Assembly: GCF_900240945.1 (NCBI RefSeq)
Contig: NZ_OESG01000014.1
Span: 616,923-680,922, forward strand
DNA: 64,000 bases
Source of the DNA: Mycobacterium sp. 3519A
GTDB lineage: Bacteria > Actinomycetota > Actinomycetes > Mycobacteriales > Mycobacteriaceae
Reading direction: 5' to 3'
Made by a program: the position numbers and the translations under genes. The notes under the pieces are model-generated. The model was not told the origin of the DNA, made no database searches, and worked only from the letters and a program-made list of their open reading frames with translations. This document shows, one piece after another, positions 47,501-51,152 of the stretch (within the stretch, counting starts at the first letter, position 1; each line of letters begins with the position of its first letter).

Positions 47501-47560
47501 GCGAGCAGACGCAGAAACGTGTTGACACGCCGCGGTGGACACGTTTCTATGTCTGCTCGC
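47501..47560. terminator. Bidirectional terminator between converging genes
   Basis: A 21-bp stem (47501-47521 with 47540-47560, 19 of 21 pairs matched) around an 18-base loop. It lies between the acyl-CoA dehydrogenase and the convergent histidine kinase and includes the kinase's stop codon (47547-47549). The GCGAGCAGACGCAGAAACGTG-like arm resembles a hairpin I recall at convergent gene ends in mycobacteria, but I cannot check that here. Confidence 0.75.
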
Positions 47561-48749
47561 CGGGAGAGGGTTCCCGTGGGGAGGTGATCGTCACCGCGGT
47601 GCCGTGGCCGACCCGCGAGTCGATGTCCATCGCACCGCCCATGGCGTCGAACCGGGCCAGCAGCGAGCCAAGGCCGATGTGGCCGTCGGCGACGTACTGC
47701 GCGACGATCGCGGGATCGAAGCCGGCGCCGTCGTCGTCGATCGTCATCACGATGCGATCGCCCTTGCGGGCCAGACTGACACGCACCGTGGTCGCCTTCG
47801 CATGCTTGCTGATGTTGGTCAGCAGTTCGCGGGCGGCCCGATACAGCAGGGCCTGCGATTCGGGTTTGCCCACATCCTCCAGGTCGGCCTCGACGACGAG
47901 GTCGGTGCGGGACTCCAACTGCCGCAACAGCTCCCGCACCGCGGCGGTGAGGCCCAGCTGTGCCAGCACCTGCGGGTGCAGCTGGGTGACGGTCGACCGC
48001 AGCCCGGTCGCGGTCTCCTGCAGCGCGGCGTAGACCATGTCGAGCGCAGGATCGGGGTTTCGTTCGCGCGCCTCATCCAGTTCGAGGCGCGCCGCCAGCA
48101 GCGTCTGCAGCGGGCCGTCGTGCAGGTGCTCGGCGACCTCGCGGTTGTGCCGCTCGTCGGATTGCATTGCCTCCGAGACGAGTTGGCGCCGCATCTCCTG
48201 CAGCGCCTTCACCCGCGCCGACCGGCGGGCGAGCACGTAACACAGCGCGGTCACCGCCACGGCCAACCACAACAGAAAGCCGAAGTGCGTGTACACCATG
48301 TTCGGCAGTCCGACCTTGTCGTCGCGTTTGGAGTAGAAGATCCACACCGCGAGATAACCTGCCGCGGTGACGGTTCCGATGATCGCCGTCATCTGTGGCC
48401 GGTCCTGAAGCGCCACCGAGATCGGCAGCAGGAAGAAGACGGGCAGCAGCGCCGCGGTCGCACCGCCGGACACCAGGCACAGCGTCAGGATCACCACCAA
48501 GTCGACGGCGGTGGACGCCCAATCCCCCCATCGGGGCACCGGACCTTTCATCACCGCCACCAACCACAGCGCCGCGGCCACCCCGTACACACCGAGAATC
48601 ACCGCGTACAGCGCCGGCAGCCAGTGGTCGACCTCCCAGATCCACACCAGGACGGCGATCAGCCCGATCAGCGGCAGCCGCAGCACCGCCGAGACGCGTA
48701 CCGGTTCGGCGGCGAGGTACTCGATGAACGGTTGGACGGAGCGCGCCAC
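47547..48749 (-). CDS. Membrane histidine kinase, NarL-partner type
   Basis: 400 residues from a GTG one base after the response-regulator stop (TAG-C-GTG order on the coding strand). About four to six membrane helices are in the first 175 residues with little extracytoplasmic sequence, so the signal may be sensed within the membrane. The HisKA_3 box EVAEHLHDGPLQ has the phospho-acceptor His210. The ATPase domain has ELLTNISKHAKATTVRV (N box), MTIDDDGAGFD (G1) and GLGSLLARFDAMGGAMDIDS. It partners the adjacent NarL-type regulator. Its signal is unknown; the small secreted proteins nearby are candidates for outputs. Confidence 0.9.
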   Translation of the reverse strand: MARSVQPFIEYLAAEPVRVSAVLRLPLIGLIAVLVWIWEVDHWLPALYAVILGVYGVAAALWLVAVMKGPVPRWGDWASTAVDLVVILTLCLVSGGATAALLPVFFLLPISVALQDRPQMTAIIGTVTAAGYLAVWIFYSKRDDKVGLPNMVYTHFGFLLWLAVAVTALCYVLARRSARVKALQEMRRQLVSEAMQSDERHNREVAEHLHDGPLQTLLAARLELDEARERNPDPALDMVYAALQETATGLRSTVTQLHPQVLAQLGLTAAVRELLRQLESRTDLVVEADLEDVGKPESQALLYRAARELLTNISKHAKATTVRVSLARKGDRIVMTIDDDGAGFDPAIVAQYVADGHIGLGSLLARFDAMGGAMDIDSRVGHGTAVTITSPREPSPGEQT

Positions 48750-48750
48750 G

Positions 48751-49392
48751 CTACTCCAGCAGCTTGCGGCGCATCGCCTCCGCGACGGCGGCGGCCCGGT
48801 CGCTGACACCGAGCTTCTCGTACAGCCGCTGCACGTGGGTCTTCACCGTCGACGGGGCCAGGAACAGCTCCTTGGCCATCGCGGGAATGCTGCTGCCCGC
48901 GGCGATCAGTTTGAGCACCTCACGCTCACGCGGGCTCAGCACCGGGCCCTCCGGTTCGGCGCGCTTGCGGATCTCGCCTGCCAACCCTGCGGCGAGGCTG
49001 GGCGCCACCACATCTCGGCCCTTCGCGCAGTCCAGCACCGCATTGATCAGCTCGCTGCGGGTCGACTCCTTCGGCAGGAAGCCGGCCGCGCCCTCTTGTA
49101 GCGCCCGGAACACGATCGCCGACTCGTCGTGCGCGGACACCAGCAGCACCCGGGTCGGCAGTTCGTCGCGTTGCACGGCGGCCGCCACCTCCGCCCCGTC
49201 CATGCCCGGCATGCGGTAGTCCAGCAGCGCCACCTGCGGCGAATGCGCCCTAATCGCCTCCAGCGCTGACAGGCCGTCGTCGGCTTCGGCGACCACCTCG
49301 ATCGACCCACTCGACGTCAGCGCGCGGACCACCCCGTCGCGGAACAGCGGATGGTCGTCACCGACCACCACGCGGACCTTTTCGCTGGTCAT
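48751..49392 (-). CDS. NarL/LuxR-family response regulator
   Basis: 213 residues from the ATG at 49392. The receiver domain has the acidic pair Asp12-Asp13, phospho-acceptor Asp58 (ALLDYRMPGMDG) and Lys in PKES. The C-terminal LuxR HTH (LSPREREVLKLIAAGSSIPAMAKELFLAPSTVKTHVQRLYEKLGVSDRAAAVAEAMRRKLLE) binds DNA as a dimer. It is followed by its kinase on the same strand and is divergent from the small secreted protein gene. A perfect dyad at 49425-49440, 33 bp from its start, recurs before the second copy of the small gene and is the best candidate binding site. Confidence 0.92.
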   Translation of the reverse strand: MTSEKVRVVVGDDHPLFRDGVVRALTSSGSIEVVAEADDGLSALEAIRAHSPQVALLDYRMPGMDGAEVAAAVQRDELPTRVLLVSAHDESAIVFRALQEGAAGFLPKESTRSELINAVLDCAKGRDVVAPSLAAGLAGEIRKRAEPEGPVLSPREREVLKLIAAGSSIPAMAKELFLAPSTVKTHVQRLYEKLGVSDRAAAVAEAMRRKLLE

Positions 49393-49424
49393 GCAGCCAG
49401 CGTCGCACAGCAGCACGCAGTTGT

Positions 49425-49440
49425 TCCCCCGATTGGGGGA
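49425..49440. promoter_or_regulatory. Inverted repeat, candidate response-regulator box A
   Basis: TCCCCC-GATT-GGGGGA, a perfect 6-bp dyad 129 bp before the first small-protein ATG and 33 bp upstream of the response-regulator ATG. An identical 16-mer occurs at the same distance before the second copy. The DNA just after it differs between the two copies at roughly a third of positions, so the 16-mer is preferentially conserved. Confidence 0.7.
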
Positions 49441-49463
49441 CCCGTGATTCATCCGTGTCGCCG

Positions 49464-49799
49464 TCCGATCACCGGACATACAACGGCGCCGCCGACCGGC
49501 AGTCTTGAGTCATCACCGGAACACACCGGCAGACAAGACCAAAAGTCAACGGAGACAGGAGAACTCAAATGAAGAACACCCGGATTTTCGCCCTCCCGAT
49601 CATCGCCGCAGGCGTCATCGGCGGCGCCGCCCTCGGCCTGGCAGGCACCGCCTCCGCCGCCACCACCGAGGTCCAGCAGCCCAACATCGTCGCGGTGCCC
49701 TCGGTCAAAGCCCACCCCGCCCCGCACGCCCAGCCCGGCTGGTACTGGCACCACGGCGTCCACCACCTCGCCGACCTGCAGCCCAGCTACACCCGCTGA
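49464..49799 (+). repeat. Direct repeat, copy A (leader plus small secreted-protein gene)
   Basis: This 336-bp segment is nearly identical to 50770-51104: I count about six substitutions and one single-base gap. It covers the 5' leader and the entire 76-codon gene; identity stops right after the stop codon. The two copies are direct repeats flanking the LLM oxidoreductase gene. Confidence 0.9.
49569..49799 (+). CDS. Small secreted His/Trp-rich protein, copy A
   Basis: 76 residues. A clear Sec signal peptide (FALPIIAAGVIGGAALGLAGTASA) leaves a mature peptide of about 46 residues beginning ATTEVQQPNIV. Its C-terminal half is rich in Pro, His and aromatic residues (HPAPHAQPGWYWHHGVHHL), with six histidines in 19 residues, suggesting metal or envelope binding. 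No cysteines are present. The start has AGGAGA 7-11 nt upstream. It is divergent from the response-regulator gene and has an almost identical copy at 50874. No family is recognised; the function is unknown. Confidence 0.8.
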   Translation: MKNTRIFALPIIAAGVIGGAALGLAGTASAATTEVQQPNIVAVPSVKAHPAPHAQPGWYWHHGVHHLADLQPSYTR

Positions 49800-49808
49800 C
49801 CATCGCCT

Positions 49809-49847
49809 GTCGAGGCCCTCGCCCAGGAATTGGGGGAGGGCCTCGAC
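49809..49847 (+). terminator. Strong hairpin between small-protein copy A and the LLM gene
   Basis: Perfect 12-bp stem GTCGAGGCCCTC / GAGGGCCTCGAC (49809-49820 with 49836-49847) and a 15-base loop, ending 14 bp before the LLM start codon. No T-run follows. It may end the copy A transcript, or reduce read-through and translation of the LLM gene. Confidence 0.65.
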
Positions 49848-49861
49848 GTGTTGGGCCAGGT

Positions 49862-50725
49862 ATGCGAATCGGCGTGGTGTTCCCCCAGACCGAACTCGGC
49901 GGCGACGCCTCGGCAGTGCGCGCCTACGGCCAACGGGTCGAGGAACTCGGTTACGCCCACCTGCTGGTCTACGACCACGTGGTCGGCGCGGACCCGTCGG
50001 TGCACGTCGGCTGGTCAGGTCCTTACGACGTCGACACGACGTTTCACGAGCCCCTGGTGATGTTCGGCTACCTCGCCGCGGTCACCACCACGCTGGAGCT
50101 GGTGACCGGCGTCATCATCCTGCCGCAACGGCAGGCCGTGCTGGTCGCCAAGCAGGCGGCGGAGGTCGACCTGCTCAGCGAGGGACGGCTGCGGTTGGGC
50201 GTCGGACTGGGCTGGAACGCCGTCGAGTACGAGGCGCTGGGTGAGGACTTCACCAACCGCGGCAGGCGGCTGACCGAGCAGGTCGAGGTGATGCGTCGGT
50301 TGTGGACCGAGCGCGCGGTGACCTTCGCGGGCAAGCACCACCGGTTGACCGGTGCCGGCCTCGCGCCGCTGCCCGTCCAGCGGCCCATCCCGGTGTGGAT
50401 CGGCGCCTCGTCGCGGCCTGCACTGGAGCGCGCGGGCCGGGTGGCCGACGGCTGGTTCCCGATGATGGGGCCGGGCCCACAACTCGACGAGGCGCGCGAC
50501 ATCGTGGCGCGGTCGGCCGCCGCGGCGGGCAGGGACCCGTCGGCGCTTGGGATGGAGGGCCGCGTCAACTGGCGCGGTGACCGTCGGCAGGTTGCCGACG
50601 ACCTCGCGCGATGGGCCGCCGTCGGCGCCACCCACGTGTCGGTGAACACGATGGGCGCCGGTCTGCGCAGCGTCGACGAACATCTGGCCGCGCTGACCGC
50701 GGTCGCCGAGAACCTCCCCGCCTGA
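49862..50725 (+). CDS. LLM class F420-dependent oxidoreductase
   Basis: 287 residues from the ATG at 49862; the frame is open further upstream through copy A but only as antisense-type noise. It is a luciferase-like TIM-barrel protein: MRIGVVFPQTELGG, LVTGVIILPQRQAVLVAKQAAEVDLLSEGRLRLGVGLGW (about 79-117), NRGRRLTEQVEVMRRLWTE, and PIPVWIGASSRPALERAGRVADGWFP. These are typical of mycobacterial TIGR03619-like F420 enzymes, which reduce or oxidise carbonyl-type substrates with F420. The substrate is unknown. It is enclosed between two copies of the small secreted-protein cassette, downstream of a strong hairpin. Confidence 0.87.
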   Translation: MRIGVVFPQTELGGDASAVRAYGQRVEELGYAHLLVYDHVVGADPSVHVGWSGPYDVDTTFHEPLVMFGYLAAVTTTLELVTGVIILPQRQAVLVAKQAAEVDLLSEGRLRLGVGLGWNAVEYEALGEDFTNRGRRLTEQVEVMRRLWTERAVTFAGKHHRLTGAGLAPLPVQRPIPVWIGASSRPALERAGRVADGWFPMMGPGPQLDEARDIVARSAAAAGRDPSALGMEGRVNWRGDRRQVADDLARWAAVGATHVSVNTMGAGLRSVDEHLAALTAVAENLPA

Positions 50726-50730
50726 CACCT

Positions 50731-50746
50731 TCCCCCGATTGGGGGA
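50731..50746. promoter_or_regulatory. Inverted repeat, candidate response-regulator box B
   Basis: Identical 16-bp dyad to the one at 49425-49440, starting 5 bp after the LLM stop codon and 128 bp before the second small-protein ATG. The same position relative to the gene in both copies supports a regulatory role. Confidence 0.7.
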
Positions 50747-50769
50747 CAAGCGGTTCATCCTGTTTCACC

Positions 50770-51104
50770 TCCGATCGCCGGACATACAACGGCGCCGCCG
50801 ACCGGCAGTCTTGAGTCATCGCCGGAACACACCGGCAGACAAGACCAAAAGTCAACGGAGACAGGAGAACTCAATGAAGAACACCCGGATTTTCGCCCTT
50901 CCGATCATCGCCGCAGGCGTCATCGGCGGCGCCGCCCTCGGCCTGGCAGGCACCGCATCCGCCGCCACCACCGAGGTCCAGCAGCCCAACATCGTCGCGG
51001 TGCCCTCGGTCAAAGCCCACCCCGCCCCGCACGCCCAGCCCGGCTGGTACTGGCACCACGGCGTCCACCACCTCGCCGACCTGCAGCCCAGCTACTCCCG
51101 CTGA
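50770..51104 (+). repeat. Direct repeat, copy B (leader plus small secreted-protein gene)
   Basis: Second copy of the ~335-bp direct repeat (partner 49464-49799). It lacks one A just before the start codon. Sequence identity ends exactly at the stop codon; after it copy B has its own terminator. Confidence 0.9.
50874..51104 (+). CDS. Small secreted His/Trp-rich protein, copy B
   Basis: 76 residues, differing from copy A by a single residue (Thr75 to Ser). It has the same Sec signal and the same short, cysteine-free, His/Trp/Pro-rich mature part. The start at 50874 is fixed by alignment with copy A and by AGGAGA upstream; the in-frame extension to 50739 is leader DNA. It is followed by a good intrinsic terminator at 51119. 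Near identity of the pair implies recent duplication or gene conversion and perhaps a dosage effect. The function is unknown. Confidence 0.8.
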   Translation: MKNTRIFALPIIAAGVIGGAALGLAGTASAATTEVQQPNIVAVPSVKAHPAPHAQPGWYWHHGVHHLADLQPSYSR

Positions 51105-51118
51105 CGCTCCCAGACCGG

Positions 51119-51152
51119 AACCCTCCCCGAAGTAGCCCCGGGGAGGGTTTCT
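51119..51152 (+). terminator. Rho-independent terminator after small-protein copy B
   Basis: Perfect 11-bp stem AACCCTCCCCG / CGGGGAGGGTT (51119-51129 with 51139-51149), a 9-base loop, then TCTCTGTT. It lies 15 bp after the copy B stop and before the convergent DUF1348 gene, so it may serve both strands. Confidence 0.85.

Follow-up and report, generated by a model that had tools for sequence, protein, structure and literature searches.

A palindromic dyad co-inherited with mycobacterial NarL as its putative operator at genes for small exported peptides

In a 64,000-nucleotide stretch of Mycobacterium sp. 3519A (contig NZ_OESG01000014.1, positions 616,923 to 680,922; this whole stretch is hereafter the window), two nearly identical genes for an exported peptide, A and B, each lie behind the same 16-bp dyad, and the response regulator of a two-component system is encoded divergently from peptide A. 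Across the genus this dyad is inherited together with the regulator, the orthologue of Mycobacterium tuberculosis NarL. Our preferred reading, to which we give a probability of roughly 0.78, is that phosphorylated NarL binds the dyad, controls (most likely activates) the small exported-peptide genes and tunes its own divergent promoter. From what was computed, namely the promoter module, its spacing, its co-inheritance with NarL and, in some of the genomes, dyads a short way upstream of the NarL gene, we infer the following chain of events. Upon a signal, the sensor kinase would phosphorylate NarL, a dimer of which would bind the strong palindrome TCCnCC(G/A)AT(C/T)GGnGGA, with a second dimer perhaps assisting at a weak site that lies 36 bp closer to the peptide gene. 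Bound NarL would most likely activate transcription of the small exported-peptide gene starting about 128 bp away and would adjust its own divergent promoter, and throughout the genus the same promoter module would drive further small exported proteins that are unrelated to these peptides. The place of action of the peptides may then be the cell envelope, where they could bind metal or protons.

The preliminary description of this locus had supposed that the regulator binds the dyads and drives the peptides; of this, the link between regulator and dyad is supported by co-inheritance and by dyads upstream of part of the NarL loci. With NarL orthologues called at E ≤ 1e-75 in 297 genomes of the genus, and the dyad counted with the pattern TCCNCCRATYGGNGGA, 212 genomes held both, 3 held NarL only, 13 the dyad only and 69 neither (odds ratio 375), i.e., the dyad was present in 212 of the 215 genomes with NarL and absent from 69 of the 82 genomes without it. 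As a control, a second NarL-family regulator (RRB) gave 137, 52, 88 and 20 genomes in the same order (odds ratio 0.6), and the mean number of dyads was 0.27 in the 59 genomes with RRB and without NarL vs. 2.8 in the 85 genomes with NarL and without RRB. Among 182 genomes of other genera, where the threshold was 1e-50, identities went down to 54% and one match (G454) holds one stop, the corresponding counts were 35, 4, 25 and 118 (odds ratio 41). NarL is also present in 87 of the 90 peptide-positive genomes of the genus; as for the other three, NarL is broken or split in G107 and G145, and G054 has a weak peptide match and no dyad.

The dyad is also found close to the regulator gene itself. In 19 NarL loci lacking the peptide (L206-L224), which were chosen from the list of NarL matches and not by dyad position, a dyad with at most one mismatch lies 19-44 bp upstream of NarL in five, one of these with one mismatch. 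Altogether, 33 of 56 NarL loci examined have a dyad upstream of NarL, most of the 56 having been chosen for their peptides or dyads, and in 32 of these 33 it lies 19-74 bp ahead of the NarL start. The same arrangement reaches into other genera: G403 and G407 have a NarL of 57% identity and a dyad about 45-50 bp upstream of its gene.

The 16-bp dyad does not behave as a frequent and random string. The same-genus genomes contain 720 dyad sites, compared with 3 matches (in 3 genomes) for the reversed pattern. In the genome of the window (G000, 7.3 Mb, with the window on its contig C14), both arms are perfect in only four of the places within two mismatches of the 16-mer, and the pattern read backwards matched once in that genome scan. 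Two of the four lie in the window, the third (C13:1050575) precedes a third peptide gene, 59% identical, and the fourth (C13:680561) lies 55-56 bp upstream of the RRB gene. When the peptide was searched against the same-genus genomes, as had been suggested, homologues were found in the 90 genomes mentioned (E ≤ 1e-3). We retrieved 100 stretches, chosen almost entirely for the better of these homologues, and with the window they gave 111 family matches to the peptide hidden Markov model; four without a start codon were dropped, leaving 107 open reading frames (ORFs), including L087 (E 1.8e-3), which is probably not a family member. Ahead of these 107 ORFs, the mismatches to TCCCCCN4GGGGGA numbered none in 31, one in 53, two in 9 and at least three in 14, so that 93 have a dyad with up to two mismatches and 84 with up to one, levels that single-letter shuffles of the same upstream sequence reach in 5.6% and 0.4%, respectively. 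In 64 of the 93 dyad-bearing ORFs, the dyad lies 126-132 bp ahead of the start codon.

Throughout the genus, one promoter module recurs ahead of small exported proteins that belong to several unrelated families. An ORF of 50-170 residues with a signal peptide starts 110-140 bp away from 20 of 69 dyad sites, whereas control positions obtained by shifting gave 17 of 688. If the three sites that had been retrieved on account of the peptide (window, L040) are left out, the count is 17 of 66; these remaining sites were taken from among the matches listed, for the most part passing over sites already found in front of a peptide gene. The ORFs at these sites form mutually unrelated families, although those of L155 and L158(+) may not be genes: beside the window family and others there is a second family with HHHHQ near its end (L145, L154, L156, L158, L177, L186, L187), and there are repeat peptides divergent from NarL (L190, L196). 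At least three His residues after residue 30 occur in 15 of the 21 dyad-site peptides tabulated, the window pair included. By eye, many dyad leaders also share TTCAtCC, CCGGTCGCCCGACAGAC, GGCATTCTTGAGTCATC, ACCGGAACACACCGG and CAAAAGCC, the conserved leader itself being based on an alignment of 75 family leaders; the leaders of L152, L154 and L158 follow the module poorly. The preliminary description had spoken of a single duplicated cassette: the duplication is real, but that scope was too narrow for a module found genus-wide. Our best reading of the sequences is that the controlled set consists of small exported, often His-rich peptides, and that it would be genus-wide but vary between species.

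Other neighbours of dyad sites are RRB (three loci), MFS transporters, a DUF732 protein, a CDP-diacylglycerol pyrophosphatase, a MASE7 cyclase and a GGDEF protein. Small proteins that have or resemble the DUF732 domain stand about 70-200 bp behind the dyad in L150, L165, L168, L183, L202, L203 and L237, where the assignment comes from Pfam for L150 and from sequence likeness for the other six. No sign of an RNA element was found in the leader: no Rfam family reached gathering strength (one sub-threshold match lies elsewhere in the stretch), a leader piece with CCGG-N6-CCGG folds little better than its shuffles (z -0.68), and a consensus fold of 81 of the 107 leaders gave no structure, in a weak test that was ungapped and pattern-anchored. 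A promoter -10 element was not located.

The regulator had been described as NarL-type, which we agree with and can sharpen, as by its sequence it is an orthologue of M. tuberculosis NarL (Rv0844c). Both of its domains scored above the Pfam cut-off (PF00072, 89.7 bits; PF00196, 59.8 bits), and it is 79% identical over 139 residues to PDB 3EUL, the receiver of M. tuberculosis NarL. Among solved structures, 3eul was matched with E 8.9e-67 and the next relative with 2.1e-31; RRB reached only 33% in the test of closeness to M. tuberculosis NarL. In the DNA-binding domain, TVKTHVQRLYEKL is invariant in all 51 orthologues compared. In the kinase, HATPase_c scored above and HisKA_3 below the Pfam cut-off; its gene is directly downstream of the regulator, its likely start falling just past the regulator stop. 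Orthologues 94-99% identical to the 3EUL receiver were found in 23 of 395 genus genomes, with 99% as the best and no 100% match to M. tuberculosis NarL among the 395, and those of them included in the dyad count all bear dyads. Four genomes with a NarL receiver 99% identical to that of M. tuberculosis (G023, G064, G113, G216) have 13, 12, 11 and 10 dyads, which together with G284 (10) are the highest counts in the genus sample.

The peptide was said to belong to no described family, and this is borne out: it matched no Pfam family at E ≤ 1, and its NCBIfam match was below threshold. The latter, to the MTB12 secreted family (NF053528), was rejected, with 16.9 bits vs. a cut-off of 125 and an alignment of residues 6-50 only, i.e., the weakly similar signal-peptide region. 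A protein database gave 154 homologues at E ≤ 1, and among the 120 of these that were inspected there were no Pfam domains, most being unnamed or "hypothetical". Two of the 120 (P0024 and P0033, one source) bear the name of the Spy/CpxP refolding chaperones, which we take to be an automatic label; the window peptide itself has no Pfam match. In 104 family members a signal peptide ending in AxA is followed by a Pro-rich stretch of 42-62 residues, and the mature part contains a median of four His (range 1-10), at most one Cys and, in most, an HHG-type motif. The AlphaFold model has no confident fold (mean pLDDT 56.5, pTM 0.14). The His-rich theme recurs between families, which makes a role with metal or protons plausible but no more than that, and the His cluster may, as the preliminary description proposed, bind metal or an envelope ligand.

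Several results weigh against the preferred reading. Three genomes of the genus (G003, G097, G112) and four of other genera (G452, G469, G483, G519) have NarL and no dyad. Pieces of NarL are present in three of the 13 dyad-only genomes of the genus (split over two contigs in G145, two overlapping pieces in G107, a truncated match in G134); the other ten hold at best paralogues of 36-41% identity (E ≤ 1e-30), the hardest cases being G209 with four dyads and G194 with two. As genomes share ancestry, the odds ratios overstate the number of independent events. In 14 of the 19 peptide-less NarL loci no dyad is present in the 330 bp upstream of NarL, and 14 of the 107 family ORFs have none, including a WHRHH subgroup (e.g., L073, L087, L090, L096) and third copies in L042 and L044. 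With a profile made from 92 dyads, the next-best match was exactly at +36 bp in 77 of the 92 leaders, but this place scores low (mean -4.8 bits vs. 27.4 for the dyads); because of this score, and because the leaders are related, so that the position could be kept without any binding, a second NarL site is merely a suggestion. The window genome also encodes a 62%-identical NarL paralogue outside the window (C14:2435776-2436408), which could read the same operator.

Should NarL bind the dyad but act in the opposite sense, it would repress the peptides and itself, and the peptides would be made when NarL is inactive. Such a repressor would fit the dyads found 19-74 bp ahead of the NarL start, from where a bound protein may block transcription. 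The peptide genes, however, mostly have their dyad some 128 bp ahead of the start with a long conserved stretch after it, more like the arrangement of an upstream activator, and we find repression improbable. It seems still less credible that the near-identical direct repeats are hitch-hiking DNA in which peptide genes and leaders carry no regulatory meaning; homologues of 40-60% identity still have the dyad at its spacing, as do unrelated genes, and the stretch past the dyad varies while the dyad itself does not, which makes this extremely unlikely.

Another regulator, e.g., RRB or a metal-sensing repressor, could read the dyad, with NarL merely co-inherited. In three loci (L039, L174, L193), all of them picked for their dyad, RRB has a dyad 51-138 bp ahead of it, and operators of CsoR-type repressors are also G-tract inverted repeats. 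However, the presence of RRB does not follow the dyad, and RRB was ruled out as the dyad regulator on this profile; a cascade from NarL to RRB is possible. A CsoR-type repressor was not considered further, given how closely the NarL profile follows the dyad, no dedicated search having been run, and none of the 24 dyad-site neighbours compared with family libraries was recognised as a metal sensor; we hold this whole alternative to be very unlikely. Finally, the peptides may be part of a nitrate or nitric-oxide response, with NarL a true nitrate regulator in mycobacteria. This is what the name of the orthologue suggests, and a review (PMC8139620) ties mycobacterial NarL to narGHJI, which it activates, and to narK2, where it acts with DevR in M. 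tuberculosis. On the other hand, when 24 distinct dyad-site proteins, a small sample given the 720 sites in the genus, were compared with Pfam or NCBIfam, no model of a nitrate reductase or nitrate transporter was matched (five of seven MFS proteins matched no NCBIfam model at all), and we regard this explanation as unlikely.

DosR/DevR is likewise a regulator of the NarL/LuxR family whose motif is a G/C-rich palindrome, present several times per promoter, but this motif differs from the dyad described here, its targets are other ones, and the window regulator matches the DevR entry 3c3w with 91.8 bits vs. 227.8 for 3eul. E. coli NarL is from the same protein superfamily with the same domain order, but the window regulator, at 139.2 bits, did not reach the curated cut-off of 250 of the E. 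coli-type NarL equivalog NF007935. M. tuberculosis NarL resembles it in the receiver and in the conserved DNA-binding stretch; it differs in that it is reported with DevR at nitrate genes, while the sites described here are at exported peptides, transporters and regulators. In two further papers, the role of narS is given as undetermined in M. abscessus (PMC10034137), and in vitro cross talk from DevS to NarL is mentioned (PMC9765234). A string search of the literature for the dyad motif found no mycobacterial paper, as judged by title, and among the papers listed by the literature searches there was none on a NarL operator or on the peptide, the primary 2015 NarL/DevR paper lying outside the search.

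The features of the locus are collected in Table 1. The two peptide genes flanking an LLM oxidoreductase gene, and the perfect dyad ahead of each, are as previously described; the peptides differ in a single residue (Thr75/Ser75) and the dyads are identical, with complementary 6-bp arms around a non-symmetric centre (TCCCCC-GATT-GGGGGA). The distance from dyad to start codon, earlier put at 128-129 bp, measures 128 bp for copy A and 127 bp for copy B. The drift just past the dyad was seen again, as only 19 of the first 30 positions agree between the copies, although the alignment that runs from dyad to stop codon has 358 of its 375 positions in common. The LLM product scored 286.4 bits against the curated TIGR03619 cut-off of 166.9 (NCBIfam). 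LLM matches are also present in L042, L044 and L046; the order regulator, A, LLM, B recurs in L042 and L044 (G270 and G066), the LLM match of L044 being in two pieces, and in L046 no start was found for peptide A. Window copies A and B are 94% identical to each other, but the identity of either to its counterparts in L042 and L044 is 73-84% despite the shared gene order, which suggests an old duplication whose copies were later made alike.

Table 1. Positions and strands of the features discussed (window coordinates unless a contig or locus is given).
Feature	Position	Strand	Remarks
Peptide A	49569-49799	+	76 residues, signal peptide ending in AxA, His/Trp-rich, Cys-free
Peptide B	50874-51104	+	76 residues
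Dyad A, TCCCCCGATTGGGGGA, proposed NarL operator	49425-49440	none	32 bp from regulator start, 128 bp from peptide A start
Dyad B, identical to dyad A	50731-50746	none	exact match
Conserved promoter/leader, copy A	49441-49568	+	leader alignments
Conserved promoter/leader, copy B	50747-50873	+	leader alignments
Possible second, far weaker NarL site, copy A	49461-49476	+	36 bp from dyad; low profile score
Possible second NarL site, copy B	50767-50782	+	+36 rule from family leaders applied to sequence
LLM oxidoreductase, TIGR03619 family (F420-dependent by family name)	49862-50725	+	between peptide copies
Response regulator, mycobacterial NarL orthologue by sequence (receiver + LuxR/GerE helix-turn-helix)	48751-49392	-	divergent from peptide A
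Sensor histidine kinase, NarS-like position	47547-48749	-	likely GTG start at 48749, read from sequence; open frame to 48809
RRB, second NarL-family regulator	L039:8841-9506 = G000 C13:679843-680505		GAF-type sensor kinase adjoining (GAF by eye)

NarL-NarS is a two-component system common to many mycobacteria, and the precise 16-bp motif, the fixed spacing and the list of candidate targets make the function of NarL directly testable. They also move attention from nitrate to small exported peptides annotated as "hypothetical", and link several families of small secreted proteins through one promoter. To hypothesize, and only tentatively, mycobacterial NarL may not be chiefly a nitrate regulator but a genus-wide switch for a set of unrelated small exported peptides, many of them rich in His, and also for some transporters and for proteins of second-messenger or regulatory function, serving an envelope response (to metal, protons or membrane stress) whose members would vary between species while the 128-bp module stays constant.
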